A stretch of DNA of 64,000 nt from Actinokineospora diospyrosa (GTDB lineage Bacteria > Actinomycetota > Actinomycetes > Mycobacteriales > Pseudonocardiaceae), in assembly GCF_024171925.1 (NCBI RefSeq), contig NZ_JAMTCO010000009.1:276705-340704 (forward strand). The letters are read 5' to 3'. Under the pieces are notes generated by a model, which saw nothing but the letters and a program-made list of their open reading frames with translations, did no database searches and was not told where the DNA came from. How positions within the stretch are numbered: position 1 is the first letter of the stretch; each line of letters opens with the position of its first letter. A program made the translations under genes and the position numbers. Positions 50,508 to 54,216 of the stretch are shown here, in pieces.

Positions 50508-51683
50508 CTAGCCAAGCAGCACCGGCAACTCGACGAGGCCCCGGTTGCGGAACGACGGTTGCCACCGCAGGTCGGCCAGGTCCACCGCCGCCCGCACGCC
50601 CCGCGCCAGCAGCGCCGAGAACGCCGTGGTCGCCTCGACCTGGCTCAACCGGGAGCCGAAACTGCGGTGGATCCCGTGCCCGTAGCTCAGGTGCGGGTTC
50701 GGGTCCCGGTCCGGCACCAGCGAGTCCGCGTCCTCGAACTCCTCCTCGTCGTGGTTGGCCGAGGCGATCCCGAGCAGCACCGTGTCCCCGATCGGCACCT
50801 CGACCCCCGCGATCTCCACCTCGCGGGTGGGGAACCGGCGGATCGCCCACTGCAGCGGCTGGTCGTAGCGGGTCAACTCCTCCACCGCGCGCGGCAGCCG
50901 GGACTCCTCGGCGCGCAGGCACGCCAGGTGCTCGGGGTGCGCCAGCAGCGCCCGCGTGCCGTTGCCGATCAGGTTGACCAGGTTCTCGTACCCCGCCCAC
51001 AGCGCCAGGAACGCCATCGACACCAGTTCCGCCTCGCTGAGCCGGTCCTCGTCGTCGCGCACCGCGATCAGCCCGGACAGCAGGTCCGGCCCCGGCTCGG
51101 CGCGCTTGCGGGCCACCAGGTCCACCAGGTACCCGTGCATCCCGGCCACCGCGTCGCGCGCCGCGCTCGGCGGCTGCTCCGGGCGCGGGGCCAGCAGCGT
51201 CGTCGTCCACCCGCGGAACCGCTCGCGGTCGGCGACCGGTACCCCCAGCAGGTCGCCGATCACCCGCAACGGCAGCGGCGCGGCGAACGAACCGATCAGG
51301 TCGAGCGGCTCACCGGAGGGCAGCGCCGCCAGGAGTTCCCCGGCCGCCGCCGCGATCGCCGGGGTCAGCTCGTGCACCCGGCGCGGGGTGAACTCGCCCG
51401 CGATCAGGGTGCGCAACCGGGTGTGGTCGGGCGGGTCGAGGTTGAGCAGGTTCACGTCCAACGCGGGCGGCAGCGCGAACCCCCGGTACCCCGCACCGGC
51501 GTTGTCCCGGCTCAACGACAACCGCGGGTCGGCCAACCCGGCCCGCACATCCGGGTACCGCGTAACCACCCAGGCCACCGACCCGTCCGGTGTGGACACC
51601 CGGCGGATCCCGCCCTCGGCGCGCAACCGCGCGTAGGTGGGGTACGGGTCGGCGTGGAACGCGGACCCGAACAGCTCACTCAT
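50508..51683 (-). CDS. P450-like protein lacking the heme-ligand cysteine
   Basis: 391 residues, ATG at 51683 ([20 protein letters not shown]), with a P450 fold throughout: [21 protein letters not shown]-helix E-E-L-T-R, and the loop [20 protein letters not shown]. At Ser341 (codon AGT) a cysteine is expected (HRCxG). The I-helix reads [16 protein letters not shown] where AGxET is usual, so the acid-alcohol pair is missing too. Either the protein binds heme by Ser/water, does not bind heme, or is a non-oxygenase. It is the last gene of the XRE-ImmA-MAB_1171c operon, 19 bases after the membrane gene. Confidence 0.85.
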
Positions 51684-51702
51684 CGCCTGCTCCGTCGTAT
51701 CG

Positions 51703-53118
51703 CTACCGCACCGGGTGCTGGTCGAGGTCGGCGAAAGCCCGCGCGACCCGCACCAGCCACGCCGCATCGGTCTCCTGCGGGGGTGGTTCAGTCACCGGAG
51801 TGGTCGCCACTGACCGCCCCGGTGTTCCACCCACCGTCTCGGCTGCCGATATTCCGCCCACCACCTCCCCGGCCGATGCACCACCCGCCCTTTCACCGGC
51901 TGGTGCTCCGCCCGCCTGCTCGCCAGCTGTTTCACCGCCCACCGGCTCACTGGCTGGTTCTTCACCCACTCGCCCGCTGGCTGGTGCTCCGCCCGCCCGT
52001 TCGGTGGCTGGTGCTCCACCTACCGGCTCGTTGGTTGTTTCACTGCCCGCTCGGCCGCTGGTTGTTTCACTGCCCGTCCGTTCGCTGGCTGATGCGCCAC
52101 GCGCTCGCCCAGCAGCTCTCTCGGTCAGGGACTCGGCGATCGCCATCGCTGTGAAGTGGGCGCGTAGGTCGGCGTCTGCGGCCGCGACGTTGTCATCGTG
52201 GGGTGGGCGGAGCCAGCGCAGGCCGTCTTGGATTTCGATTACTCGTCGGTGTAGTCGGAAGTCGAGGTCGCGCATCGCCCACCGACCTGCGGCCCGGTCT
52301 AGGGCCAGGCCCGGGTTCGCCGCCATCAGGGCTGCCCACAGCGGGTACAGCGCGCTGTACGCCCGGTGCGCCCGCCACCACGACCGCAGCCACCGCACCT
52401 GCGGGCCCCAGCCGGGCAGGCTCCAGCCGATGAGTGTGCAGATCGCGCCGAGACCGGCACCCAGCTGCGCCACGACCTCCCACCGCTGCGGGTCAAGGCC
52501 CAGCGGCCTAGCGACCACGTCGGCGTAGCGGGCCGCCGCGTAGACGAGGCCGCCGAGCGCGCCCGTCGCGGCGAGCCGCAACCCCCGGCGCAGCCACGTA
52601 CCGGCGACGGCTCGCGCGTACCGCAGGCACCGCACCACGATCAGGTACTCGGTCACGGCGAACGCGGTCACGTAGAGCATCAAGTACACCGAATAGACAC
52701 CGTGCCCGGCGAAGCGGACCGCGGCCGTCGTGGTGTCCTCCTCGGTCAGGTCGGCCGCGGCGAACAGCGCGACCATCGCCGCGAACACCGCGCCGAACGC
52801 CCAGATCCGGCGCCGCACCAGCGGTCGGGCCCGATCGGGCTCCAGGTCCCAGTGCGTCAGCGCGGCCAACTGGCTCGCCGCGACCCCCATGACGCTGCCC
52901 TGCGACAGCACCAGCGCCAGGTTCGGCACCCCCATCACCCGGTCGAGCGCCGCCCACACCCTGGGGTCGCTGATGGTGAAGGTCAGTGCCATGAACAGGT
53001 AGAAGAACCCGACCGCCACCGCCGCGGCACCGCGGTCGCGGCGCAGCAGTCCGGGCAGCTTGAACAGCAGGCTCACCCAGGCGAGCGAAGCGCACAGCGG
53101 GTAGAGGACCCCGTTCAT
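51703..53118 (-). CDS. MAB_1171c-type membrane protein with nonapeptide-repeat tail
   Basis: 471 residues, ATG at 53118, overlapping the ImmA/IrrE stop by 4 bases (ATGA). Residues 1-240 carry seven hydrophobic helices ([59 protein letters not shown] further on). Residues 250-345 are a soluble domain ([38 protein letters not shown]). From about 345 to 435 lies a chain of nine-residue repeats ([13 protein letters not shown]), then a short helix. The family is known in actinobacteria (MAB_1171c) as a putative transporter or sensor next to XRE and ImmA genes, as here. Function unproven. Confidence 0.85.
51821..52089 (-). repeat. 27-bp tandem repeats coding for nonapeptides
   Basis: About ten copies of a 27-base unit encode variants of [AV]-G-G-A-P-A-x-E-R (for example [27 protein letters not shown]). 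The array lies in the cytoplasmic tail of the MAB_1171c-type protein and looks like recent slippage expansion. Confidence 0.85.
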
Positions 53119-53642
53119 CCCGCCTCAGGGGGCGCGGAGTGGTCGAGCGAGTCGTGGATGCGCGCGACGACCCCCTCGCACTGGATGGGCGCGGGTCGCA
53201 GCCGCGCCGCCAGCAGGTAGGCCATCACCTCGGCCTGCTGCTCCTGATCGTCGCTGTAGTCCTTGCGCGCCAGCATGTCGCGCACCAGGTTCGGGTCGAT
53301 GTCGGGGAAGAACACCGCGGCGGTGTCCTCGTCGAGGTGGCCGCCGCCGCGGTGGCAGCAGATCATGTGCCCGATCTCGTGCAGGATGATGTGCTCCCGG
53401 TGCGCTCGCGTGGTGGTCTCGTCGTAGAAGATGAAGTCCGCCTCCTGGGTCGCCACCCAGATCCCGCACGGTTCCGACGCGCGCATCGACACCGGCACCA
53501 CGTGCAGCGCGCGCCCGCGCACCTCGGCCAAGTGGGCGCACAGGGCCGCGAGGTCCAGCTGCCCGGGAAGGTCGAACCGGGCCAACAGCGCGGCGCACTC
53601 GCGCCGTGTTGTCCGCAGGTTCCGCCGAGACACCCCGCTCAC
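53115..53642 (-). CDS. ImmA/IrrE-type metallopeptidase
   Basis: 175 residues from the GTG at 53642, overlapping the XRE stop (GTGA). The zinc site is H-E-I-G-H (IILHEIGHMICCHR); a third ligand Glu is probably in the QAEVMAYLLAARL helix. Upstream, ALHVVPVSMRASEPCGIWV fits the family fold. ImmA-type proteases cleave XRE repressors, as for ImmA and ImmR of ICEBs1 and IrrE and DdrO of Deinococcus. The neighbour XRE protein is therefore the predicted substrate. Confidence 0.92.
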   Translation of the reverse strand: MSGVSRRNLRTTRRECAALLARFDLPGQLDLAALCAHLAEVRGRALHVVPVSMRASEPCGIWVATQEADFIFYDETTTRAHREHIILHEIGHMICCHRGGGHLDEDTAAVFFPDIDPNLVRDMLARKDYSDDQEQQAEVMAYLLAARLRPAPIQCEGVVARIHDSLDHSAPPEAG

Positions 53643-54097
53643 GCCCCGGGGGTCTCGGTGCTCGGGTCGGTGTCGGTGACCGGCGGCAGGCCGCGCTGCC
53701 TGCGGGCCTGGTCGAGCAGCGCGGTGATCAGGTCCAGGTTCGACCGGGGGAGCCCCATGGCGCGCTGGGCGATGCCGACCACGCCCCGGTCGCGCAGCAT
53801 CGCCAGCTGCTCGAGCTGCTCGCGCACCCGCTCGCCCTGGCCGTCCTCGTCGTCGAAGAAGTAGCTCGGGTTCACCCCGAAGAACCGGGCCAGCGCGACC
53901 AGCAGGTCCATCGACGGGCTGCTGCGCCTGCCGGTGCGCAGCATCGACAGGTACGCGCCGCTGACCCGCAACTCCGGGTTGACCCGCTTGACCTCGGCGG
54001 CGACCTCGGCGTTGGACCACTGCCGCCCCCGGGGACGGCTCAGCCGGAACAGCCGGTCCAGTCGCGCGGGCAACGGCGTGGAGCCGCCGTCGGACAT
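53639..54097 (-). CDS. XRE-family repressor of the ImmA operon
   Basis: 152 residues, ATG at 54097. HTH in residues 10-75: RLDRLFRLSRPRGRQWSNAE, VAAEVKRVNPELRVSGAYLS, MLRTGRRSSPSMDLLVALAR. FFGVNPSYFFDDED after it is a typical XRE dimer-like extension. The C-terminal 70 residues may hold the cleavage or interaction part. It is the first gene of the four-gene operon and lies about 50 bases from a TAACT-N3-AGTT palindrome, with a second copy 54 bases beyond; autorepression is likely. Confidence 0.9.
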   Translation of the reverse strand: MSDGGSTPLPARLDRLFRLSRPRGRQWSNAEVAAEVKRVNPELRVSGAYLSMLRTGRRSSPSMDLLVALARFFGVNPSYFFDDEDGQGERVREQLEQLAMLRDRGVVGIAQRAMGLPRSNLDLITALLDQARRQRGLPPVTDTDPSTETPGA

Positions 54098-54149
54098 CCC
54101 AACCCCCCACCAGTGGGTCGTCGCTACGAACCCGATCAGTGTCGCAGGG

Positions 54150-54162
54150 TAACTGTCAGTTG
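54150..54162. promoter_or_regulatory. Operator copy 1 upstream of XRE-ImmA operon
   Basis: TAACT-GTC-AGTTG, a near-palindrome. The same pattern recurs 54 bases away (TAACT-ACT-AGTTA). Proximal copy, 53 bases upstream of the XRE start. Confidence 0.55.
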
Positions 54163-54203
54163 ACAATCCGCCCACAAGGCCGGCTACGATGACCCACGAG
54201 AGT

Positions 54204-54216
54204 TAACTACTAGTTA
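54204..54216. promoter_or_regulatory. Operator copy 2 upstream of XRE-ImmA operon
   Basis: TAACT-ACT-AGTTA, a palindrome with a three-base centre, sharing the TAACT-N3-AGTT pattern with copy 1. Spacing of 54 bases between centres is about five helical turns, which would suit cooperative binding. Confidence 0.55.

Follow-up and report, generated by a model that had tools for sequence, protein, structure and literature searches.

A 64,000-nucleotide stretch of the Actinokineospora diospyrosa genome (the window; contig NZ_JAMTCO010000009.1 of assembly GCF_024171925.1, positions 276,705 to 340,704 of the forward strand) carries four tightly linked minus-strand genes. In the order of transcription, these encode an XRE-family repressor, an ImmA-like metalloprotease, a membrane protein of the MAB_1171c family, and a cytochrome P450-like protein whose haem loop has serine in place of the usual cysteine ligand (Table 1). 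The XRE and ImmA genes overlap by GTGA, the ImmA and MAB_1171c genes overlap by ATGA, and the P450 gene starts 19 bases past the MAB_1171c stop; the original prediction described this linkage, and the coordinates of the open reading frames (ORFs) bear it out. Here we describe this operon, its distribution, and the sensing circuit that it may encode.

Table 1. Features of the operon, with scores to be read against the Pfam/NCBIfam cut-offs (HTH_3 23, Peptidase_M78 22, NF042915 100, p450 22.8 bits).
Feature	Position in window	Strand	Details
Serine-ligated P450, orthologue of P450-G9	50508..51683	-	ATG start, 391 aa; p450 40.5 bits
Haem-ligand loop of P450, residues 331-350	50634..50693	-	clade-specific residues concentrated in 338-350
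MAB_1171c family membrane protein with cytosolic DUF6545 tail	51703..53118	-	471 aa; NF042915 235 bits, DUF6545 84 bits
ImmA/IrrE-like metalloprotease, HEIGH motif	53115..53642	-	GTG start, 175 aa; Peptidase_M78 17.5 bits, below cut-off
XRE-family repressor, EspR-like	53639..54097	-	ATG start, 152 aa; HTH_3 26.1 bits
Putative core promoter TTGTCA-N17-GACACT	54138..54166	-	read by eye; operator 2 in spacer
Operator 2 AACTGACAGTTACC	54148..54161	-	54 bp from operator 1; core in 8 other loci, at most 2 mismatches
Operator 1 AACTAGTAGTTAAC, palindromic core TAACTA-G-TAGTTA	54202..54215	-	perfect match; core in 8 other loci, at most 1 mismatch

A conserved four-gene locus

When 249 genomes of the family were searched with the window P450, the top nine matches scored 592-863 bits and the next one 418. 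The window's genus, represented by 16 genomes, accounts for eight of these nine, and the ninth belongs to another genus; the named carriers are A. terrae, A. globicatena, A. fastidiosa, A. inagensis, A. auranticolor, A. enzanensis, and Haloechinothrix halophila. Orthologues of XRE, ImmA, and the serine P450 occur in the same nine of the 249 genomes, beyond which identity drops from at least 71% to 60% for XRE, from at least 62% to 56% for ImmA, and from at least 72% to 55% for the P450. All nine loci (the window and L112-L119) have the order XRE, ImmA, MAB_1171c, P450, so both the conserved four-gene operon and the cysteine-less P450 that had been predicted within it recur throughout. In five loci (L112, L116-L119), the MAB_1171c and P450 genes overlap by four bases; they lie 19 bases apart in the window, and 22 and 58 bases apart in two others.

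The serine P450 was not found outside Actinokineospora and Haloechinothrix. Among 394 genomes of the class, 17 gave a P450 match at E 1e-100 or better; only the window genome belongs to the serine clade, cysteine being shown by motif at all 17 loci from the other 16 genomes. The best 80 of 573 relatives comprise 7 with serine and 73 with cysteine. In six other genomes that hold the nearest XRE or ImmA relatives, the P450 profile found no P450 in the stretches concerned.

The serine P450

Serine stands at the axial position in 9/9 members of the clade, none of which has the canonical P450 cysteine there, and cysteine in 94/94 ungapped relatives of an alignment of 95 rows, the one gapped row (L110) showing cysteine by motif. 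Residues H87, R91, E269, R272, R282, and H339, which we take to be the haem-propionate holders and the ExxR pair, do not vary among 25 sequences, and the AGYEN I-helix and the ExxR pair resemble those of the cysteine relatives. CYP107X1 of Streptomyces avermitilis (PDB 7wex) and related CYP107 proteins share 50% identity and the same I-helix motif with the window P450, but CYP107X1 has cysteine (HYCLGAPLAR) where the window clade has its serine loop.

The nearest solved protein is 9cjg_A (E 6.3e-215, 84% identity), and its ligand loop is identical to that of the window P450. This entry, released on 2025-03-12, is entitled as P450-G9 from Actinokineospora terrae, "a non-canonical, serine-ligated cytochrome P450", and on this title a serine-bound haem is predicted for the window protein as well. 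In an A. terrae record (L032), the four genes are likewise present and follow the order of the window. Operon, regulation, and reaction go unmentioned in the title of the entry, and searches of the open literature for P450-G9, 9CJG, and serine-ligated P450 found no paper on P450-G9.

The original prediction regarded this P450 as defective, a view that its haem-pocket residues, its selective history, and the deposition of the A. terrae orthologue as a natural serine-ligated P450 contradict. Ratios of nonsynonymous to synonymous substitution (dN/dS, NG86) of 0.12-0.43 among the nine P450 pairs listed indicate purifying selection. A broken pseudogene is ruled out by these ratios together with nine stop-free frames, the fixed serine, and the deposited structure of the orthologue.

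The change in the clade extends beyond the ligand itself. Of 378 compared positions, 16 are clade-specific, that is, fixed in the serine clade (8 or more rows filled) and shared by no more than 3% of relatives, and 7 of these 16 fall within residues 338-350, a stretch of 13 (hypergeometric P 8e-8, a value limited by the choice of this stretch around the loop and by the non-independence of positions). Under a second rule and in a smaller set (8 serine and 17 cysteine rows), 5/8 diagnostic positions lie in 341-348. The new polar or charged residues of the loop are Arg340, Ser341, Ser344, Arg345, Ser347, and Gln348. Because the clade-specific residues concentrate in the loop, the alignments indicate that it was remade as a unit and then frozen in the serine clade, and that the ligand did not merely disappear by drift.

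The engineered P411 enzymes are P450s in which the axial cysteine has been changed to serine. They share this substitution with the window clade, whereas here it is natural, involves the whole loop, and is fixed in nine genomes. From the P411 work, serine ligation is expected to disfavour ordinary O2-dependent monooxygenation. Since a serine ligand makes ordinary O2 activation unlikely, the serine P450 probably carries out chemistry other than ordinary O2-dependent hydroxylation.

A different view would be that the P450 is catalytically dead and binds a partner, like the P450-derived glycosyltransferase activators. We consider this improbable, and it is the least favoured of the alternatives weighed here. 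The protein does match TIGR04515, the family of such activators, at 131 bits, but this is far under the curated cut-off of 343, and the assignment to that family was rejected on this score. Moreover, neither the operon nor the nine flanking ORFs scanned include a glycosyltransferase, the haem-propionate and ExxR residues are constant in 25 sequences, and the orthologue was deposited as serine-ligated.

Operators and putative promoter

Only two sites in the 8.1 Mb genome match the consensus AACTNNNAGTTAMC perfectly, and both precede the operon; about 0.5 would be expected by base composition. In each of the eight other loci, where the surrounding DNA is variable, both sites depart from the core AACTNNNAGTT by no more than two mismatches; the twin operators of the original prediction have thus held up. 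The second operator lies in the spacer of the putative promoter, of which TTGTCA is present in 9/9 aligned upstream regions and GACACT in 7/9. An automatic sigma-70 scan reported no promoter at this place. A wider XRE regulon was considered, but no sign of one was found, as no perfect site occurs elsewhere and one-mismatch sites show no excess genome-wide (21 vs 24 for a reversed control). In other XRE-ImmA-MAB_1171c cassettes, which are described below, a AACTNNNAGTT site with at most one mismatch was present in 5/17 upstream regions and the 54-bp pair in none, so the operator seems to be specific to the serine-P450 clade.

Further upstream, a hairpin (GTTCCGCGCTC...GAGCGCGGAAC) followed by T6 lies at 54394-54445 on the minus strand, and a similar stretch precedes the operon in L112, L115, L116, and L117. 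It is possibly the terminator of a small transcript; it had no Rfam match and was not called by the terminator scan, and the window as a whole gave zero Rfam matches.

The operon is taken to consist of four genes because the next ORF past the P450, an alpha/beta hydrolase (49296-50504), runs in the opposite direction and a GGDEF diguanylate cyclase gene (54883-56589, minus) lies upstream. The DNA of the GGDEF region also matches in 6/8 of the relatives' loci. Among the nine flanking ORFs scanned, no gene of a mobile element, of DNA repair, or of a cyclic-oligonucleotide-based antiphage signalling system (CBASS) was seen.

Repressor, protease, and membrane protein

The closest solved protein to the XRE repressor is EspR (3qf3, E 4.7e-21, aligned residues 4-137). 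Its gene adjoins that of an M78-type protease with an HEXXH motif, here HEIGH, which is kept together with a downstream QQAE segment in 8/8 aligned rows (the window and seven others). A search by sequence gave no credible solved relative of the protease (best E 0.45); the HEIGH motif and profile-level kinship with the ImmA proteins of other cassettes point to membership of the M78 family.

An XRE repressor beside an HEXXH protease, with overlapping genes, is also the arrangement of ImmR/ImmA, DdrO/IrrE, and CapH/CapP, and the operators at the operon's own promoter, as read from the DNA, add to the likeness with the ImmR/ImmA and DdrO/IrrE type of switch. The present locus differs from all three in that a gene for a seven-helix membrane protein comes next in line and in that the best solved relative of the repressor is EspR. 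CapH and CapP matched weakly in PADLOC (capH E 0.004, capP E 0.006). No known defence system was recognized: XRE (HTH_VI, capH, RmrA) and ImmA (capP) matched at E 0.002 or worse, and the other two proteins had no defence-system match.

The membrane protein scores above the curated cut-off of NF042915 (MAB_1171c). Its AlphaFold model shows seven long helices with a flexible tail and has a mean predicted local distance difference test (pLDDT) score of 71; the membrane helices are mostly at 85-96, and two blocks are near 65. Loop charges, judged by eye, suggest that the N-terminus is outside and the tail inside. Among the best 50 of 595 Foldseek matches, nearly all are G-protein-coupled receptors (GPCRs) or GPCR-like designs, with template modelling (TM) scores of about 0.3, which makes these matches weak. 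We describe the protein as receptor-like and do not call it a GPCR. A tandem repeat array with periods of 27 and 81 bp lies at 51898-52100, in the part of the gene that encodes the tail, which it lengthens by about 90-100 residues relative to seven aligned orthologues.

The cassette elsewhere and its fourth slot

MAB_1171c matches were found in 184/249 genomes of the family (167 over the cut-off) and in 62/296 genomes of the class (41 over the cut-off), and some family genomes have at least seven. From the high-scoring family matches listed, 80 places were picked for spread, matches under 60 bits being dropped (e.g., one of 21 bits in L154). XRE and ImmA lie just upstream in 50 of them, and ImmA in 69. 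Within 900 bp after MAB_1171c, there was an amidohydrolase in 16 places, a flavin adenine dinucleotide (FAD) monooxygenase in 10, and a methyltransferase and a P450 in one each (28/80 in total), as detected with four class profiles that were built from the same 80 loci plus P450-selected and same-genus loci. Seven further same-genus places lacking a P450 include two with a methyltransferase. At 30 places in class genomes (L229-L257, of which L238 repeats L128), XRE and ImmA were present in 20 and ImmA in 27, and MAB_1171c was followed by an amidohydrolase in 2, a methyltransferase in 1, a P450 in 0, another gene in 25, and a contig edge in 2. The fourth gene overlaps MAB_1171c by four bases in 9/9 FAD monooxygenases, 2/9 amidohydrolases, 3/6 P450s, and 2/3 methyltransferases, these being clustered genes. 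Taken together, the XRE-ImmA-MAB_1171c cassettes are common in actinobacteria and look like a large family of sensor modules, of which we found no description in the literature.

Cassettes with an amidohydrolase, FAD monooxygenase, or methyltransferase sometimes occur several to a genome (L132-L211, L231, L233, L240). Two genomes of the window's genus (L125, L126) have a second cassette, in which ImmA follows MAB_1171c and XRE lies about 1.4 kb upstream.

The overlapping fourth genes bear on an alternative that takes the membrane protein for a transporter, the XRE/ImmA pair for a general stress switch of the DNA-damage or mobile-element type, and the P450 for a passenger. The NCBI name of the family is "putative transporter", and MAB_1171c of Mycobacterium abscessus was studied as an integral membrane transporter whose knockout lowered the minimum inhibitory concentrations of clarithromycin and cefoxitin and reduced biofilm mass to about half (PMC8707978). 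The gap of about 0.5 kb between MAB_1171c and the P450 in A. terrae would also suit a passenger. Against this stand the presence of XRE, ImmA, and the serine P450 in the same 9/249 genomes, the purifying selection on the P450, and the four-base overlap of fourth genes from four classes with MAB_1171c in many cassettes, and we regard the alternative as unlikely.

P450s with cysteine lie beside MAB_1171c in 20 loci (L120-L124, L196, nine of L039-L111, and five of L212-L228), a number that is not an unbiased frequency, as similarity to the window P450 led to every one of them except L196. In 10 of these loci, both XRE and ImmA were detected, a count to be read with the shortness of several of the 20 in mind, and four loci have the P450 on the opposite strand. 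The P450s behind MAB_1171c in L120 and L121 have the ligand loop CPAAPLA, which lacks the usual glycine two residues past the cysteine. The Cys-less P450 that the original prediction placed beside MAB_1171c therefore holds for Actinokineospora and Haloechinothrix, where serine is present in 9/9 loci, but not further: cysteine is present in 20/20 loci examined outside. The view of the original prediction that the co-occurrence of the fourth gene is the novel part has to be reworded, as the slot holds various genes in other cassettes.

In a tree of 56 of the 104 P450 rows, the serine clade forms one group (100/100), inside a weakly supported set (91/90) with four cysteine P450s of MAB_1171c cassettes and a fifth whose 1.5 kb flanks lack MAB_1171c. 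Across cassettes, the identities of XRE, ImmA, and MAB_1171c each correlate with that of the P450 (rho 0.65, 0.58, and 0.55, over 171 non-independent pairs). The simplest story, plausible but weakly supported, would be that a cysteine P450 already in the cassette turned into the serine P450.

The chief rival on the role of the P450 makes it the sensor of the circuit, a haem-based receptor of a gas or ligand that reports to ImmA or to the membrane protein. It draws on the expectation from P411 chemistry that serine ligation disfavours ordinary monooxygenation, on the new polar and charged residues of the remade loop, and on the place of the P450 in the same operon as the protease in all nine loci. 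We find it doubtful, as plain catalytic families fill the slot in other cassettes, the P450 relatives beside MAB_1171c keep their cysteine, and both the AGYEN motif of the I-helix and the ExxR pair resemble their counterparts in the cysteine relatives. The likelihoods given to the three alternatives overlap, since they partly concern different steps.

The proposed circuit

Our preferred reading, to which we give a probability of roughly 0.58, is that the locus is an autoregulated chemical-sensing operon whose output enzyme is interchangeable and in the present case is a natural serine-ligated P450. The EspR-like XRE protein would bind the twin operators and shut its own promoter. The seven-helix MAB_1171c receptor would sense a small molecule, and its cytosolic tail would switch on the ImmA-like protease, which would remove XRE and so induce the operon, including the gene in the last slot. 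The product of that gene would be the output, an enzyme acting on the sensed molecule or on a product thereof. The sequences establish the gene order, its conservation, the operators, the serine at the ligand position, the remade loop, and the variable fourth gene. We infer DNA binding by XRE, sensing by MAB_1171c, and the P450 reaction, and repressor cleavage and induction are proposed by analogy with ImmR/ImmA and DdrO/IrrE.

What counts for this reading is the linkage and overlap of the genes, the co-occurrence in nine genomes, the conserved operators with one inside a putative promoter and no other perfect site in the genome, the retained HEIGH motif, the seven-helix model, the variable slot, the deposited structure of the A. 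terrae orthologue, and the low dN/dS of the P450. Several observations weigh on the other side. The protease falls short of the Pfam Peptidase_M78 cut-off (17.5 vs 22 bits). A plain hydropathy scan resolves six separate segments, leaving out the helix at 174-206, none of the 595 Foldseek matches reached E 0.001 (the top one, yeast Ste2, is at 5e-3 with a TM score of about 0.3), and the NCBI family name speaks for a transporter. No perfect operator exists away from the operon, and the weaker sites are indistinguishable from background. The P450 lies about 505 bases from MAB_1171c in A. terrae and 58 in A. globicatena, where a separate P450 promoter is possible. Finally, 51/80 places lack any of the four enzyme classes after MAB_1171c (a contig edge accounting for one more), and an enzyme output is thus not universal to the cassette.

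Streptomyces conservon operons likewise consist of signalling genes and then a P450 gene; their signalling proteins are not known to be related to those described here.

A more tentative extension, to which we assign clearly less than even odds, is that actinobacteria possess a large family of plug-in sensor cassettes, each with an EspR-like repressor, an ImmA-type protease, and a GPCR-like seven-helix receptor, in which the receptor would drive proteolysis of the repressor and the last slot would hold an enzyme for the sensed molecule. In the serine clade, the slot would have passed from a cysteine to a serine P450 whose proximal face was remade. Such a P450 would be nature's equivalent of the engineered P411 enzymes and might perform non-monooxygenase chemistry on the ligand of the receptor.

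Significance

The serine-ligated P450 is already on record as a structure. We found no paper on the operon, on the XRE-ImmA-MAB_1171c cassette, or on DUF6545 in the open literature (most subscription journals being outside this scope), where MAB_1171c itself is mentioned in one paper, and no record there of the natural job of a P450-G9-type serine P450. To our knowledge, serine-ligated P450s have been made in the laboratory for reactions not thought to occur in nature. The fixed place of this P450 behind a sensor-protease-repressor circuit offers a route to its job: the inducer of the operon is the substrate candidate to consider first. Cassettes whose last slot holds another enzyme could likewise serve to match a set of actinobacterial receptors to their chemicals.

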